Origin: Streptomyces scopuliridis RB72
Lineage (GTDB): Bacteria > Actinomycetota > Actinomycetes > Streptomycetales > Streptomycetaceae
NCBI RefSeq assembly: GCF_000718095.1
Contig: NZ_JOEI01000040.1
Coordinates: 52,883 to 116,882 of the forward strand
Length of the DNA: 64,000 nucleotides
Direction of reading: 5' to 3'
The notes under the pieces are model-generated. The model ran no database searches, was not told the origin of the DNA, and was given only the letters and a program-made list of their open reading frames with translations. Positions 17,028 to 64,000 of this stretch are shown here, in pieces. A program made the translations under genes and the position numbers. Within the stretch, counting starts at the first letter, position 1; each line of letters starts with the position of its first letter.

Positions 17028-17144
17028 GGCGGGAGGGGGTCGAGGTCGGAGGAGGTGCGTGTCCGGACGTAAAGCGTCGCAGCTCGCGCGAAGCGCGGTG
17101 ACCACGCGACGGAGTCGCATATCGACCGCAGCGCAGTCCGGAGC
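17028..17144 (+). repeat. Palindromic repeat, class B, copy 1
   Basis: 117 bp: a G-rich head (GGCGGGAGGGGGTCG...GGAGGAGG), then an 82-bp core from GTCCGGACGTAAAGCG to GCAGTCCGGA holding small hairpins (CGTCGC...GCGACG, CGCGcgaagCGCG, GTCGcatatCGAC). It differs from the copy at 29319-29435 at a single base. The head is nearly identical to that of the class A elements. It ends against the 5' part of the following gene, whose reading frame continues back into it with no ordinary start codon. Confidence 0.9.
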
Positions 17145-29318: not shown

Positions 29319-29435
29319 GGCGGGAGGGGGTCGGGGTCGGAGGAGGTGCGTGTCCGGACGTAAAGCGTCGCAGCTCGCGCGAAGCGCGGTGACCACGCGA
29401 CGGAGTCGCATATCGACCGCAGCGCAGTCCGGAGC
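29319..29435 (+). repeat. Palindromic repeat, class B, copy 2
   Basis: 117 bp, identical to 17028-17144 except one base in the G-rich head (GTCGGGGTC against GTCGAGGTC). The core end GTCCGGAG lies 12 bp from the stop codon of the minus-strand GNAT gene; the G-rich head points toward the murG-like fragment. Confidence 0.92.
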
Positions 29436-36690: not shown

Positions 36691-36807
36691 ATTCAGGAGC
36701 GTACGGACTGAATCGCAGGGTGTCACTACACGAAGCGCCTCCCGGCGGGGGGGTCGTGGTGCGGGGGTGCGTTGTACCTCCGGGGGCCGGGGCCTCCGGA
36801 GGTACAT

Positions 36808-36929
36808 GTCCGGACGGCATGATTTACGGCGCGCAGCTGCCCACAGTCAGAAGACGGGCGTCCACGCGCCACAAATCACGCTTTAGTGTCCGGACACGCA
36901 CCTCCTACGACCCCGACCCCCTCCCCCGG
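36808..36929 (-). repeat. Palindromic repeat, class A, copy 3 (reverse orientation)
   Basis: Read on the minus strand it is G-rich head (CCGGGGGAGGGGGTCGGGG) then GTGTCCGGACACTAAAGCG, stem, loop, and CGTAAATCATGCCGTCCGGAC. The stems equal those of the other A copies while the 5-nt internal loops and 13-nt apical loop differ (for example TGGAC/AGCTG instead of CGAAC/CGGTA). The head end is 24 bp from the stop of the DUF6010 gene. Confidence 0.9.
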
Positions 36930-36952
36930 TCGGCCCGCGCGCCCTCGCGGTG

Positions 36953-37369
36953 TCAGGCGGTCCGGTCCTGGATCACCACGGGTCGCTTACCGCGGAAGAG
37001 CTCACGCAACGTCGGGCCCCCTCGCAGGCACCAGAGCGCGATGACCGGGTCACAGATGGCACAGCCCAGCGACGAGTCGTGGGCGAAAGGGATCAAGGGG
37101 CTGCCCTTGATGTGGTGAACGATGTCCCACGCGGTGTGCAGCAGCCAGCCGATGCCGATGAAGGTCCACGAGTCCAGGCCGCGGTAGGCGACATAGGTGA
37201 CGAGTGCGGCGAATGCGAACTCCCAGCCTTGCAGGCCGCCGCCGCTGAGGTACGCGGCGCCCGCCCCGGCGAGCATGACGGCGTTGAAGCGCCGCCGGTG
37301 CGGTTCGCGGATGAGGGACATCAGCAGCGCGTAGAGAACGCCGATCCCGACCGGTATGACGTATTGCAT
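36953..37369 (-). CDS. DUF6010 membrane protein
   Basis: 138 residues from ATG 37369 with AAGAGG upstream. Four hydrophobic segments are seen (YVIPVGIGVLYALLMSL, AVMLAGAGAAYLSGG, FAFAALVTYVAYRG, WTFIGIGWLLHTAWDIVHH). HTAWDIVHH and CAICDPVIALWC contain conserved polar residues typical of DUF6010. Function unknown. The gene is bracketed by repeat elements on both sides (A at its 3' end, C 150 bp upstream), which suggests it may have arrived or been spared together with them. Confidence 0.78.
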   Translation of the reverse strand: MQYVIPVGIGVLYALLMSLIREPHRRRFNAVMLAGAGAAYLSGGGLQGWEFAFAALVTYVAYRGLDSWTFIGIGWLLHTAWDIVHHIKGSPLIPFAHDSSLGCAICDPVIALWCLRGGPTLRELFRGKRPVVIQDRTA

Positions 37370-37518
37370 GCGTGCCTCTTCTTGAGGTGTGACGGTACGT
37401 CGGCCCGCCATGTGGGGGCCGGCGCGGCGGCTCACCACGCTAGGCCCGCGTCCGGTCGCCCCCCAGAGGCATTACTGACAGGTTCCAACGGGTTGCCGCC
37501 ACGGCGGGGGGCCGCCTC

Positions 37519-37790
37519 GCGCACGGCCGCGTCGTCGGTGACGGGCGGCGAAGGGGGGCGCGCAGGGGTCGTGTCCGGGACACTAAGCGTGATGTGTGGC
37601 GCACGACCGCCCGCATCCCGACTGTGGCCGGAGTCGCGCCGTACGGGGGTCCGGGGGTGTCCCCCGGGAAAGCACAGCATGCCGTCCCGGGCGCGAGCCC
37701 CGGAGCGCACCCCGGCAACAACCCGACCCCAGCCAAAGATCACCCGCACCGAACAACCCGCACCCGGAAACCGGCCCCAGGCCAAAGACG
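37519..37790 (+). repeat. Composite palindromic repeat, class C, copy 1
   Basis: Shares with the copy at 49414-49712 a head (GCGCACGGCCGCGTCGTCGG ... GGGGTC), a core starting GTGTCCGGGACACTAA and ending CATGCCGTCCCGGGC, and a tail containing a single unit of the 48-bp repeat (AACAACCCGCACCCGGAAAC ... GCCAAAG). In this copy the right stem is interrupted by about 34 bp of extra DNA with its own CCGGGGG-tgt-CCCCCGG hairpin (37645-37678). The tail ends 14 bp from the stop of the minus-strand GGDEF gene. The 150 bp between its head and the DUF6010 start show nothing else. Confidence 0.85.
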
Positions 37791-37803
37791 AACGCACTCC
37801 GGA

Positions 37804-38979
37804 CTACGCCCCCCCGCCGGGAGGCGCAGGCGCGTCCCGGAAGCGCCGACGGTCCCGAGCCGGCCTCGCCGGCGCAGGCGCGTCCGCCAGCCGCAGCACC
37901 GCCCCGTCCCGCCCCGCCACCACCGGCCCCCCCGCCCGCGCCGCCTTCGCCCGGTACTGCGCCGCGTCCGCCAGCCGGAACAGCCGGCGTGCCGACCGCA
38001 CCTCGCCGATCGGATCCCCCGTCGACGCGATCCCGCACGCCACGCCCTCCCCCAGCTCCAGCCCGGCCGCCCGCTCGCACAGCTCCGTCGCCACCGCCAG
38101 CACCTCGTCCGACGTCGGCCCCACCGTCAGCAGACAGAACTCGTCCCCGCCCAGCCGCGCCACCAGTGCGCCCGGAAGCCGCGCGCCGCTCACGGACAGC
38201 AGCGTGGCGAACCGTTCCAGCAGACGGTCACCGACCGCGTGCCCCTGGGTGTCGTTGACCTTCTTGAGGCCGTTGAGATCGCAGACGACCAGGCTGACGA
38301 CGGCCCCCTCCTCCCGGTACCGCTCGATCGCCTCGTCGAGCCGTGCGTCGACCGCGCGCCGGTTCGCGAGCCCGGTCAGCGGGTCGGTGAAGGCGAGTCT
38401 GCGGACCTCTTCGAGCCGCTCCGTCTGGGCGATCCCCGCCGCCACCACGGACGCGATGACGGTCGCGAAATCCGCGTCGGCCACGTCGAACAGCGGTGCT
38501 TCCGGAGGTCTGGCCACGTACAGCTCGCCCCACGCCCGCCCGTGCAGCACGATCGGCGCGACGACACAGCAGCCACGGCCCCGCCTGCGCAGCGCGGCCA
38601 CGCGCTGGTGGTTGTAGCCGGGCCGGCCCGAAACCCCCGCGCCCCCAAACGCCGGCCCCGCCGCCGTCTCGACCCACGCCTGCGGCCCGCCGCCCCCCGC
38701 CCACCGCTCGTGCAGGAACTCCGCGATCTCGGGGAACTCATGCACGGGGTACGTCTCGTCCTCGGGGAACTCCTCCTCCCCGCCCACCCGCGCCCCCGCG
38801 TTCACCAGCACCTTGAGCCGGCCGAGATCCCGCTCCCACACCGACAGCGCCCCGAAGCTCCCCCCGAGTGCCTCCAGCGCGCCCCGCGCGGCGGCCCGCC
38901 AGGACTCGATCGCCGTTGGGGCCGCCGCCATCGCCTGAGACAGTTCCACTATGGCGCGCAGTCGCCCATCCACTCCCAT
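37804..38979 (-). CDS. GAF-GGDEF diguanylate cyclase
   Basis: 391 residues. The N-terminal 190 residues are a GAF-like sensor (GGSFGALSVWERDLGRLKVL, GCCVVAPIVLHGRAWGELYV). The GGDEF domain begins LAFTDPLTGLANRRAVDARL and carries the intact active site ARLGGDEFC, so it should make cyclic di-GMP from GTP. The five-residues-upstream RxxD inhibitory site is absent. In Streptomyces c-di-GMP controls development through BldD and the RsiG-WhiG switch. The C-terminal tail is Pro/Ala/Arg-rich. The stop lies 14 bp from a class C repeat. Confidence 0.9.
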   Translation of the reverse strand: MGVDGRLRAIVELSQAMAAAPTAIESWRAAARGALEALGGSFGALSVWERDLGRLKVLVNAGARVGGEEEFPEDETYPVHEFPEIAEFLHERWAGGGGPQAWVETAAGPAFGGAGVSGRPGYNHQRVAALRRRGRGCCVVAPIVLHGRAWGELYVARPPEAPLFDVADADFATVIASVVAAGIAQTERLEEVRRLAFTDPLTGLANRRAVDARLDEAIERYREEGAVVSLVVCDLNGLKKVNDTQGHAVGDRLLERFATLLSVSGARLPGALVARLGGDEFCLLTVGPTSDEVLAVATELCERAAGLELGEGVACGIASTGDPIGEVRSARRLFRLADAAQYRAKAARAGGPVVAGRDGAVLRLADAPAPARPARDRRRFRDAPAPPGGGA

Positions 38980-48821: not shown

Positions 48822-49403
48822 ATGGCGAGCAGTACGGCACACCCGCTGCCCCGGCCCATGCGCGCCGACGCACGGCGCAACTACGAGCGCCTGCTCACGG
48901 AGGCCCGCCGCACCTTCGCGGAACACGGCACGGACGCCTCCCTGGAGGACATCGCGCGCCACGCGGGCGTCGGCATCGGCACGCTCTACCGGCACTTCCC
49001 GAACCGCCAAGCGCTGATGAACGCGGTCTTCCAGGAAGCGGTCACCTCCCTCATCGAGCGCTCCCGCGAACTCGCCGAGGCGGAGCAGCCGTGCGGTGCG
49101 CTGGTCGAATGGCTGGGCGCGCTCATCACTCACGCGGGTGAGTACCGCGGGCTCTCACAGGCGCTCATGTCGGCGTCCCACGACGAGAGTTCGGCGCTGT
49201 CGCAGTGCAGCGTGCCGATGCGCGAGGCGGGCGGGCGCCTTCTGGTACGGGCGCAGCGGGCCGGCCATGTCCGGCCGGAGGTCTCGATCGACGACCTGCT
49301 GCAACTCACGAACGCGATTGCCTTGGCGGCGGAGCAGTCCCCGTCCGACCCGCACTTGGCGGAACGCCTCCTGAAATTGACGCTTACGGGCCTGCGGGCC
49401 TGA
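48822..49403 (+). CDS. TetR/AcrR-family transcriptional regulator
   Basis: 193 residues. The N-terminal DNA-binding part is ARRTFAEHGTDASLEDIARH then AGVGIGTLYRHFPNRQALMN, with the recognition helix GIGTLYRHFP. The C-terminal dimer and ligand domain has no special motif. Regulated gene unknown; no transporter is directly adjacent, but the truncated DHA2 exporter 3.5 kb away would be a typical partner class. Stop codon is 10 bp from a class C repeat. Confidence 0.9.
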   Translation: MASSTAHPLPRPMRADARRNYERLLTEARRTFAEHGTDASLEDIARHAGVGIGTLYRHFPNRQALMNAVFQEAVTSLIERSRELAEAEQPCGALVEWLGALITHAGEYRGLSQALMSASHDESSALSQCSVPMREAGGRLLVRAQRAGHVRPEVSIDDLLQLTNAIALAAEQSPSDPHLAERLLKLTLTGLRA

Positions 49404-49413
49404 GCCTTTTTAT

Positions 49414-49712
49414 CTTTGGCCGAGGCCGGTTTCCGGGTGCGGGTTGTTCGGTGCGGGCGGTCTTTGGCCGACGCCGGTTTCCGGGTGCGGGTTGTTCGGT
49501 GCGGGCGGTCTTTGGCCGACGCCGGTTTCCGGGTGCGGGTTGTCGCCGGGTGACGCTCCGGGGCTCGCGCCCGGGACGGCATGATTTACGGCGCGCAGCT
49601 GCCCAACGTCTAGACACTGGCGTTCGCGCGCCACAAATCACGCTTTAGTGTCCCGGACACGACCCCTGCGCGCCCCCCTTCACCGCCCGTCACCGACGAC
49701 GCGGCCGTGCGC
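49414..49712 (-). repeat. Composite palindromic repeat, class C, copy 2 (reverse orientation) with tandem 48-bp units
   Basis: Read on plus: 48-bp units beginning CTTTGGCCGA at 49414, 49462 and 49510 (third partial), then GGGGCTCGCGCCCGGGACGG, the core (CATGATTTACGGCGCGC ... ACAAATCACGCTTTAGTGTC) and the head (GACCCCTGCGCGCCCCCC ... GACGACGCGGCCGTGCGC). Its core keeps the class A stem (GGCGCG/CGCGCC, GCC/GGC) with different loops. The unit end lies 10 bp from the TetR gene stop, its head end 47 bp before the DUF5707 start. No gene lies within. Confidence 0.88.
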
Positions 49713-49759
49713 AAGGGCGGGCTCTGTCACGAAACGCACCGTTTTCCGGAGGGGAATTC

Positions 49760-50173
49760 GTGTCCAAGCGCATCGTTATTCCGTCGCTTATTGGTGCCGT
49801 CGCTATCGGCGGCATGGCGTCCGCCGCCCCCGCCAAGCCGACCGTGGAGAACAACTCGGCCCGATACGCCGCGGGCTCGCTCACCTTCACCGCGAAGGTG
49901 ACCGACGACTCGGGAGTCCAGGGCCTCAAGGTCCTGGCCTGGCCGAAGAGTTCGGACCTCAAACCGACGGCCGAGGAAATGGCGCACGTCGAGAGCGCCA
50001 CATGCAAGAAGTCCACAGCGGAGACGTCCGTGTGCACCTACACCCTGAAGGTCACCCAGAAGGAGGCGGCCGACCTGCCCAAGGGCACCTGGTACGTCTC
50101 CGCGCTGGCGACAGCCAAAGACGGAGACAAGACCTTCGTGCCCGAGGCCGCGGTCTTCAGCGTCACGCGCTGA
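49760..50173 (+). CDS. Secreted DUF5707 protein
   Basis: 137 residues from GTG 49760, with CCGGAGGGG upstream. A signal peptide (IVIPSLIGAVAIGGMASAAPA) precedes one Ig-like/beta domain (LTFTAKVTDDSGVQGLKVLA, VCTYTLKVTQKEAADLPKGT) with a Cys pair that may form a disulfide. This matches the streptomycete DUF5707 family. Function unknown. It is flanked by a class C repeat upstream and a class A repeat 18 bp downstream; the read-through tail of the DeoR gene overlaps its 3' end antisense. Confidence 0.85.
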   Translation: MSKRIVIPSLIGAVAIGGMASAAPAKPTVENNSARYAAGSLTFTAKVTDDSGVQGLKVLAWPKSSDLKPTAEEMAHVESATCKKSTAETSVCTYTLKVTQKEAADLPKGTWYVSALATAKDGDKTFVPEAAVFSVTR

Positions 50174-51390
50174 ACCGCGCGGCGGCTGGGGGCGACCACC
50201 GGCGGGAGGGGGCCGGGGTCGGAGGAGGTGCGTGTCCGGACACTAAAGCGTGATTTGTGGCGCGCGAACGCCCGCATCCCAACTGTGGGCCGGTACGCGC
50301 CGTAAATCATGCCGTCCGGACGCAAGTCCGCCACCCGCGCCCGCTCCCCCGGCTCCTGCGCCGCCAGCGACGCCGCCGCACTCCGCAGCTGCGACCCCGG
50401 CCCCCCGCTCCCCGGCCCCTGTCCCGGACCCGGCCCCGCCGCATGCGTACGGCGCTGCCCCGGAAGCGGTACGTCTCGACGCGACTGACGCCCCGCCTGA
50501 TGCGCTTCACCGCCCGAGCCACCGGCCCCGCCCACGGAACCGGACCCGGCACCCGCACCCGCCCCGGCCGAAGACCCGCCGACAGAGCCGGCCCCGCCGG
50601 CCCCGCCGACCCCGCCGGCCACCGCGATCTGCACCCCCTGATCCGCCAGCGCCTGAAGCTCCGTCGCCGCGCGATCGTCATGCGCCGGCGGCTCGTCGGT
50701 CACCAGCCTGCTGATGAGATCCGTCGGCACCGTCTGGAACATCGTGTCGGTGCCCAGCTTCGTATGGTCGGCCAGCACCACGACCTCCGCCGCGGCCTGC
50801 ACCAGCGCCCGGTCCACGCTCGCCGAGAGCATGTTGGACGTGGACAGCCCGCGCTCGGCGGTCAGCCCGCTCCCGGACAGGAACGCGCGGGTGACCCGGA
50901 GGCCCTGGAGGGACTGCTCCGCCCCGCTGCCGACCAGCGCGTAGTTCGAGCCGCGCAGCGTGCCGCCGGTCATGACGACCTCGACCCGGTTGGCATGCGC
51001 GAGGGCCTGCGCGACGAGCAGCGAGTTGGTGACGACCGTCAGGCCGGGGATCCGCGCGAGCCGGCGGGCCAGCTCCTGCGTGGTCGTACCGGCGCCGACG
51101 ACCACGGCCTCGCCCTCTTCGACGAGACTCGCGGCGAGATCGGCGATGGCCGTCTTCTCGGCCGTTGCGAGATGGGACTTTTGCGGAAAGCCGGATTCTC
51201 GCGTGAATCCGCCCGGCAATACCGCACCGCCGTGCCGGCGGTCGAGGAGTCCTTCGGCCTCCAGCGCCCGCACGTCCCGCCGTACGGTCACTTCGGAGGT
51301 CTGGACGACGCGGGCGAGCTCACGGAGCGACACGGCCCCGTTGGCGCGCACCATTTCGAGGATCAATTGGCGACGTTCTGCAGCGAACAC
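50038..51390 (-). CDS. DeoR-family transcriptional regulator with stop codon overwritten by a class A repeat
   Basis: Residues 1-245: ERRQLILEMVRANGAVSLRE and TSEVTVRRDVRALEAEGLLD form the DeoR winged helix-turn-helix; LTVVTNSLLVAQALAHANRV and ADHTKLGTDTMF belong to the phosphosugar-binding domain. A Gly/Ala-rich disordered tail of about 110 residues follows, ending ERARVADLR. The next codons are already the repeat (PDGMIYGAYRPTVGM), and the frame then stays open antisense through the DUF5707 gene to a TGA at 50038. The natural product thus gains about 95 unrelated residues. Family members control sugar or nucleoside metabolism. Confidence 0.82.
   Translation of the reverse strand: MFAAERRQLILEMVRANGAVSLRELARVVQTSEVTVRRDVRALEAEGLLDRRHGGAVLPGGFTRESGFPQKSHLATAEKTAIADLAASLVEEGEAVVVGAGTTTQELARRLARIPGLTVVTNSLLVAQALAHANRVEVVMTGGTLRGSNYALVGSGAEQSLQGLRVTRAFLSGSGLTAERGLSTSNMLSASVDRALVQAAAEVVVLADHTKLGTDTMFQTVPTDLISRLVTDEPPAHDDRAATELQALADQGVQIAVAGGVGGAGGAGSVGGSSAGAGAGAGSGSVGGAGGSGGEAHQAGRQSRRDVPLPGQRRTHAAGPGPGQGPGSGGPGSQLRSAAASLAAQEPGERARVADLRPDGMIYGAYRPTVGMRAFARHKSRFSVRTRTSSDPGPLPPVVAPSRRAVQRVTLKTAASGTKVLSPSLAVASAETYQVPLGRSAASFWVTFRV
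50192..50321 (+). repeat. Palindromic repeat, class A, copy 1
   Basis: 130 bp, matching 63871-64000 at 127 positions. G-rich head with GGAGGAGG, then GTGTCCGGACACTAAAGCG, left stem TGATTTGTGGCGCG, internal loop CGAAC, GCCC, 13-nt loop ending ACTGT, GGGC, internal loop CGGTA, right stem CGCGCCGTAAATCATGC, and GTCCGGAC. It starts 18 bp after the DUF5707 stop, and its far end sits exactly at the normal end of the DeoR-like gene. Confidence 0.93.
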
Positions 51391-63870: not shown

Positions 63871-64000
63871 GCGACCACCGGGGGGAGGGGGTCGGGGTCG
63901 TAGGAGGTGCGTGTCCGGACACTAAAGCGTGATTTGTGGCGCGCGAACGCCCGCATCCCAACTGTGGGCCGGTACGCGCCGTAAATCATGCCGTCCGGAC
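63871..64000 (+). repeat. Palindromic repeat, class A, copy 2 (reaches window end)
   Basis: 130 bp, 127/130 identical to 50192-50321, ending at the last base of the window with GTCCGGAC; anything beyond is unseen. It lies 108 bp after the stop of the S74 tail gene. The short interval before it has no gene. Confidence 0.93.

Follow-up and report, generated by a model that had tools for sequence, protein, structure and literature searches.

The hairpin at positions 50192-50321 belongs to a dispersed family of structured repeats, and we read it, with moderate confidence, as a Streptomyces-specific, non-autonomous mobile repeat of the REPIN/MITE type. The strand signature of its imperfect base pairs (G·T in large excess over A·C), its indifference to the orientation of the neighbouring genes, its arrangement in inverted doublets and an occupancy that differs between relatives favour, when taken together, a mobile element that folds as a single strand over a family of terminators. 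The stretch of Streptomyces scopuliridis RB72 DNA analysed here (64,000 nt, hereafter the window) contains several copies in two classes, and the features discussed below are the following.

50192-50321, plus strand: class A copy with outer stem A1
50192-50233, plus strand: G-rich leader of the copy at 50192-50321
50234-50241 with 50314-50321, plus strand: outer stem GTCCGGAC of the same copy
50242-50247, plus strand: bulge ACTAAA of the same copy
50248-50264 and 50296-50312, plus strand: inner arms of the same copy
36808-36929, minus strand: class A copy (A1), outer stem 36888-36895 with 36808-36815 in minus-strand reading
63871-64000, plus strand: class A copy (A1), ending at 64000, the end of contig C40 and of the window
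49552-49674, minus strand: class A copy carrying the other outer stem, A2 (GTCCGGGAC / GTCCCGGGC)
37557-37709, plus strand: A2 copy, its 3' arm broken by an extra hairpin at about 37643-37677
17028-17144, plus strand: class B copy, with leader, outer stem GTCCGGAC and bulge start GTAAA as in class A and another inner hairpin
29319-29435, plus strand: class B copy, 99% identical to 17028-17144
49760-50173, plus strand: gene of 137 aa (DUF5707), flanked by the divergent hairpins 49552-49674 and 50192-50321
36953-37438, minus strand: gene of 161 aa (DUF6010), flanked by the divergent hairpins 36808-36929 and 37557-37709

The three A1 copies of the window follow one scheme, GTCCGGAC-ACTAAA-17-nt arm-5 nt-GCCC-13 nt-GGGC-5 nt-arm-C-GTCCGGAC, and the sequence-only reading that had drawn attention to them gave both this scheme and the positions of the three hairpins correctly. 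Its description understated the outer stem beyond GTCCGGAC, class B with the same leader, the inverted pairing and the two A2 copies of the window. Class A outer stems in S. scopuliridis RB72 are of two kinds, A1 with GTCCGGAC in both arms and A2 with GTCCGGGAC and GTCCCGGGC, and the two kinds meet as divergent partners in the window, 49552-49674 (minus) with 50192-50321 (plus) and 36808-36929 (minus) with 37557-37709 (plus). The copy at 36808-36929 lies directly past the stop codon of the minus-strand gene 36953-37438. Adjoining the A2 hairpin at 49552-49674, a GC-rich unit of 48 bases is repeated head to tail in three copies (49413-49556), and sequence related to this unit recurs in inverted order at 37678-37797. 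A similar extra hairpin in the 3' arm, as at about 37643-37677, characterises a class A subfamily seen in at least three genomes (L009, L010, L106, L107 and L162).

Across the genome of S. scopuliridis RB72, a 20-base core pattern with up to two mismatches identified 32 class A 5' arms, and the same pattern read backward, as a control, gave none; the element is dispersed, as had been claimed from the window, but the three copies then counted were too few. Class B was found at 29 places spanning leader and core, among 56 match rows, with a 30th place cut short, and a BLAST search with 50192-50330 hit 51 places in the genome, many of them representing the shared leader alone. The copies are often paired: all 17 adjacent pairs within 1 kb are divergent doublets, and 34 of the 61 class A and class B copies belong to such pairs, one cut-short class B place and one cut-short class A partner being left out of this count. 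Class A is combined with class B in 14 of the 17 doublets and with another class A in 3 of the 17, and divergent pairs are present in G241, G101, G055 and G376 too. Contigs C14, C17, C33, C35, C44 and C45 begin or end inside elements, as does the contig end at 64000; with the assembly breaking within the repeats, the true copy number and the true neighbours may exceed our counts.

The predicted RNA fold of the named strand is one hairpin of -54.7 kcal/mol (z -6.3), as good as which none of 200 shuffles folded; the opposite strand reaches -48.2 kcal/mol (z -4.2, 1/200 shuffles as good) and leaves the A·C positions open. The earlier claim that the element folds fully on one strand only thus holds, in that just the named strand pairs completely; the opposite strand still folds, less well. 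The three G·U pairs between the inner arms, also pointed out at that stage, are there in the sequence and in the predicted fold. Two further properties had been described accurately. Stem bases are kept while loops vary, with an identity of 96.7% for the conserved blocks (78 comparisons) and of 71% for loops of equal length (34 comparisons); and the spacing is kept, with 40 nt between the conserved blocks in 13/13 complete, uninterrupted copies that a regular expression caught in the S. scopuliridis RB72 genome, copies with an inserted hairpin or cut ends being left out.

In the common form found across species, an outer stem of at least 17 pairs, whose sequence differs between species, is followed by a bulge in which GTAAA of the 5' strand faces A of the 3' strand (in S. 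scopuliridis RB72, ACTAAA faces C), an inner stem of 16-17 bp, GCGTGATTTGTGGCGC / GCGCCGTAAATCATGC, and then 30-odd variable nucleotides. Copies entered the alignment through an exact pattern that covered the bulge together with the inner stem's 5' arm, and then had to pass a 3'-arm filter of at most four edits; since that 5' arm lies inside the search pattern, to which the TAAA of the bulge belonged as well, its conservation is partly by choice and only the 3' side of the inner stem is free evidence. The outer stem past its first four pairs was outside the selection criteria. In the 23 complete rows of 47 that were used from the alignment (A3) for the covariance model (R1), the outer helix shows changes on both sides in 11 of 17 pairs with 97.7% of the cells paired, and over the whole structure 64 cells have changed on both sides compared with 15.5 in shuffles, a signal that sliding the partner abolishes. 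The inner G·U pairs are nearly fixed (23/23, 22/23 and 18/23 sequences). After a filter that demands the first three pairs to be paired and at least 11 of 17 to be paired, 58 distinct outer stems were left, and 29 of them are interrupted, 16-18 pairs out from the bulge, by a 3x3 internal loop, G-N-A/G-G-A; the 29 comprise 14 GCA, 11 GGA and 4 GTA variants. A site for a protein binding double-stranded DNA was considered and is unlikely, because the distance between the arms varies (loop strings of 39-46 letters in 47 rows) while the outer stem covaries. At one locus of several species (L070, L075, L092 and L118), the sequence before the hairpin, read by eye, could perhaps pair either with its own upstream copy or with the 3' arm of the outer stem, in the manner of a switch.

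If only the double-stranded DNA were constrained, G·T and A·C would be expected about equally often among imperfect pairs. In the outer stems, we counted 78 G·T against 9 A·C pairs in 90 of 95 elements from 39 genomes, the other five failing the filter just described; the numbers are 53 against 9 for distinct stems and 28 against 5 for one stem per genome (p 6.6e-5), and by genome 22 favour G·T, 3 favour A·C and 14 are ties. A looser earlier count with both stem ends gave a weaker bias, 61 G·T against 28 A·C among the distinct stems of 97 of 99 elements. The copies are related and the counts are therefore not independent events, and the direction is the same at each level of thinning. With G·T so far above A·C, selection appears to act on one strand, in the form of RNA or of single-stranded DNA, and to keep this particular strand foldable. 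The original suggestion of an RNA or single-stranded DNA structure fares well as regards the favouring of one strand; on the choice between the two it goes no further, as G·U pairs cannot separate RNA from single-stranded DNA. Because the strand signature is measurable, existence as folded RNA, as folded single-stranded DNA or as DNA only becomes testable. More generally, the covariance model, the copy number, the covariation and the excess of G·T are all favourable to the proposal of a dispersed element with a strand-specific fold under selection; the evidence named beforehand as speaking against it was a handful of copies with no stem covariation, and what we found are 32 arms and a covarying outer stem.

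Of the 392 Streptomyces genomes sampled, 71 contain the family according to the covariance model (E 1e-4 or better); the copy numbers of this survey are lower bounds, since at most nine candidates per genome were scored, under stricter filters. In a class-level sample, the same approach found it in 7 of 394 genomes, all of them Streptomyces and thus 1 of 137 genera. The exact core pattern occurs at 55 loci in the genomes of GTDB species, 54 in Streptomyces and one in a MAG; the latter (L116) is without a 3' arm and was dropped as a chance match. As far as sampled with strict filters, the family is confined to Streptomyces and patchy within the genus. The same genomes recur between these counts, G273 apparently being AP-93 and G294 apparently TBY4, with identical coordinates. 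With one copy from outside the window as the query, none of 50,697 phage records carries a copy and 1 of 72,556 plasmid records matched; with a window copy as the query, the plasmid records gave no match. Such scant carriage counts against a mobile element. Core matches in viral contigs were taken for chance, all eight, read by eye, being without a 3' arm in the next 100 nt.

The window region is comparable in eight relatives, and site occupancy differs between species. At the first site (36712-37867), S. scopuliridis RB72 has A1, the DUF6010 gene and A2; in G781, whose aligned blocks are 87-95% identical, two class A hairpins stand near each other and no DUF6010 gene lies between them. One class B copy and other repeats are found near a contig end in G783, other repeats in G225, and some 1.4 kb of different sequence in G241; a rearrangement affects G784, the sequence of G782 ends there, and G101 and G105 have no core match at this site. 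At the second site (49404-50590), where S. scopuliridis RB72 has A2, the DUF5707 gene and A1, there is one class A hairpin in G241, one class B hairpin (L248 2334-2500) inside about 2.1 kb of other sequence in G781 and no core match in G101, G784 or G783; the DUF5707 gene at 49760-50173 has no match at the same place in G781. The element marks places where genes come and go between related strains. The class A hairpin of S. scopuliridis RB72 and the class B hairpin of G781 at the second site have similar leaders, and the difference between them may be due either to an exchange of inner hairpins or to an independent gain.

The 3' end of the copy at 50192-50321 is joined to the end of a minus-strand gene, the frame of which continues into the hairpin, while the same gene end in G781 retains a trailer and its own stop codon; both an insertion at the gene end and a later deletion would lead to this difference. 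In the group of AP-93, G090 and TBY4, the hairpin is part of a larger composite that also comprises CTCAAACGCCGG-type repeats; at one site G090 and AP-93 have the hairpin with flanking repeats where TBY4 is without 453 bp, a gap that could be a deletion at a GGGG repeat. No clean insertion with target duplication was seen at the compared sites, the junctions being ragged and the right ends differing between copies, and no clean empty site was obtained for a G376 copy, the relatives being too distant. Some copies look old and appear to have been inherited at a single locus by several species, a pattern more in keeping with a retained function than with a parasite.

For a mobile repeat of this type, we infer that new copies would arise via a folded single-stranded intermediate, RNA or single-stranded DNA, which a helper encoded elsewhere in the genome might recognise by the bulge and the inner stem. 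Copies would persist between gene 3' ends as they are presumably least harmful there, and some could be kept as terminators or 3'-end stabilisers. Searches for Y1 transposases and reverse transcriptases over 46 genomes found no helper, which counts against this reading. The reverse transcriptase domain (PF00078) is present in 23 of the 46, namely 15/26 with copies and 8/20 without a model match, and a retro-type helper was rejected; Y1 (PF01797) is present in 14 of the 46, 10/26 with copies and 4/20 without a model match, the 20 including two genomes (G006 and G008) with one weak BLAST match each. No transposase was seen among 13 neighbour proteins, chosen from the clustered neighbours of 54 loci and read by eye. 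Bacterial MITEs and the enterobacterial repeats of the RU/ERIC type are non-autonomous, inverted-repeat and intergenic, and can bring stop codons and terminators. The Streptomyces hairpin is comparable in these respects, but differs by its covarying outer stem and its strand-specific G·U pairs. MITEs are further marked by fixed terminal inverted repeats with a target-site duplication and by a related full-length element that carries a transposase; no defined ends or target duplication were found at the compared sites. REP sequences have a short conserved tetranucleotide 5' of the hairpin; in our family, the inner stem is preceded by GTAAA or ACTAAA, a motif that lies within an outer stem.

It is possible, though we give it a rather low probability, that the family instead consists of spread terminators or 3'-end stabilisers, hairpins past stop codons that halt RNA polymerase both ways or block 3'-to-5' decay. 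The gene context speaks for it, as convergent gaps are commoner and divergent gaps rarer than in controls: among 63 elements, 29 gaps are convergent, 21 tandem sense, 10 tandem antisense and 3 divergent, compared with 22 convergent, 41 tandem and 27 divergent among 90 control gaps, the contexts coming from a simple codon-composition gene finder, not annotation, with shared inherited sites counted repeatedly, elements without a predicted gene on either side left out and a few elements overlapping a prediction. In 10 of the 63, the stop codon is separated by 37-45 nt from a point set 25 nt ahead of the bulge, several copies start right after stop codons, some of them at a locus common to several species, and the predicted folds of representative copies are very stable, down to -94.9 and -107 kcal/mol. 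According to PMC3765725, transcripts from convergent genes commonly overlap in Streptomyces.

On the other hand, no U-run stands behind the hairpin in the copies examined, and the sole terminator-like site within 49300-50700 is a separate one, a hairpin with a T-run at 49387-49402, where the plus-strand gene 48822-49403 ends. Between convergent genes, a terminator family would work in both directions, and bidirectional terminators, which are long hairpins at gene 3' ends, should tolerate G·T and A·C alike, against the 28:5 observed with one stem per genome; neither a conserved bulge nor an inner stem conserved in sequence is needed for termination, and the strand-specific pairing also sets our family apart. 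Tandem copies occur in both orientations, 21 sense and 10 antisense, and as at least 4 of the 21 represent one inherited site, a sense preference cannot be claimed; the bias of strand relative to neighbouring genes that had been proposed as a check is weak. The verdict "not simple terminators" of the sequence-only reading is supported. With a mobile repeat as the preferred reading, copies are tolerated at gene 3' ends and may also terminate or insulate transcripts, and a role as terminator or stabiliser is likely at some sites, as a side effect or by domestication. The element has to be known before terminators of convergent genes and small RNAs are annotated in Streptomyces.

The bulge is retained, with another inner hairpin in place, in class B, in the L217 form and in the minimal L223 form (GTAAA-GC-GAA-GC-A). 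It is improbable, in our judgement, that the family represents a new type of mobile hairpin system, in which a socket of outer stem and GTAAA/A bulge would accept class A, class B or the minimal GCGAAGC, a non-Y1 helper would copy the folded strand, and the inverted doublets would collect strain-specific genes, shaping the gene islets of Streptomyces; not every predicted fold of class B, L217 and L223 preserves the pairs as drawn, so the socket is an interpretation of the sequence.

We also doubt that the family is a structured regulatory RNA whose bulge and inner stem bind a protein or an RNase (e.g., RNase III), with the copies acting as processing sites or sponges. Strand-specific pairing, the 3x3 internal loop (GNA/GGA in 29/58 distinct stems, 16-18 pairs from the bulge) and the GTAAA/A bulge across the aligned copies (with TAAA in the search pattern) would suit such a role, but no single gene function is shared by the clustered neighbours of 54 loci, class B and the short L223 and L217 forms keep the bulge and not the inner stem, and no Rfam family matches the window at the gathering score. 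The Rfam hits below the cut-off, weak plant microRNA-precursor models and one CRISPR-repeat model, are unrelated. That the form belongs to no named family, as had been surmised, agrees with Rfam and with the literature searched on Streptomyces repeats and mobile elements, where no description of the hairpin family was recognised, supplementary lists being places that may hold one; this covers the parts used of PMC3765725, on Streptomyces ncRNA, and of PMC4681348. PMC11109978, as far as its main part goes, is an ncRNA survey that files such motifs as mobile or repeat candidates, and its supplementary lists may still list such a motif.

Integron attC sites are folded single strands with asymmetric unpaired bases and a variable terminal loop, found at gene 3' ends, and the Streptomyces hairpin is like them in its asymmetric bulge, variable loop and position at gene 3' ends. 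The DUF5707 and DUF6010 genes lie between hairpins and have no match at the same places in G781, as would be expected of cassettes that carry a gene and its hairpin as one mobile unit and recombine at the folded hairpin. We regard this as very unlikely, since the copies are scattered and not arrayed, the core is different, several copies lie behind genes kept in several species and the doublets are inverted, not tandem; no integrase reached the TIGR02249 cut-off in the 26 genomes with copies, a search that had no positive control, as 0/14 controls reached it too. Sub-threshold TIGR02249 matches, present in all 14 controls as well, were taken for other tyrosine recombinases.

REPINs are described in PMC3116915 as inverted doublets whose spacers vary; the paper proposes that RAYTs move them and predicts a hairpin in single-stranded DNA or mRNA. 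The resemblance is evident in that both are short, intergenic, dispersed and non-coding hairpins in inverted doublets with variable spacers; unlike REPINs, the Streptomyces family has a unit of some 120 nt in which two stems are stacked and a bulge is enclosed, and two hairpin types meet in one doublet (A with B, 14/17 pairs). No well-described REP/REPIN counterpart in high-GC actinobacteria was found in the literature searched. That we are dealing with a true REPIN moved by a RAYT-type Y1 transposase is extremely improbable, despite the inverted, intergenic and non-autonomous doublets and a PF01797 somewhat commoner in genomes with copies (10/26 vs. 4/20), as this domain is absent from 16 of the 26, including G189, G241, G376, G090, G055 and G058 with several copies each, and Y1 genes follow the copies poorly.

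Other repeats accompany the hairpin in some genomes. In G376, where 12 of 20 match rows span the hairpin (the query itself counted), arrays of a GC-rich unit of 89-106 bases lie on the leader side of the hairpins (L151 1032-1754). In the group of AP-93, G090 and TBY4, the hairpin is flanked by, or contained in, a further Streptomyces repeat, CTCAAACGCCGGACGG and its inverse (L167, L205 and L211); the ends of this repeat are of the type GCCCTGCGGGGC...GTCCCC, and a 1.6-kb query gave 123-135 matches per genome in this group, many of them to the part with the CTCAAACGCCGGACGG repeat.
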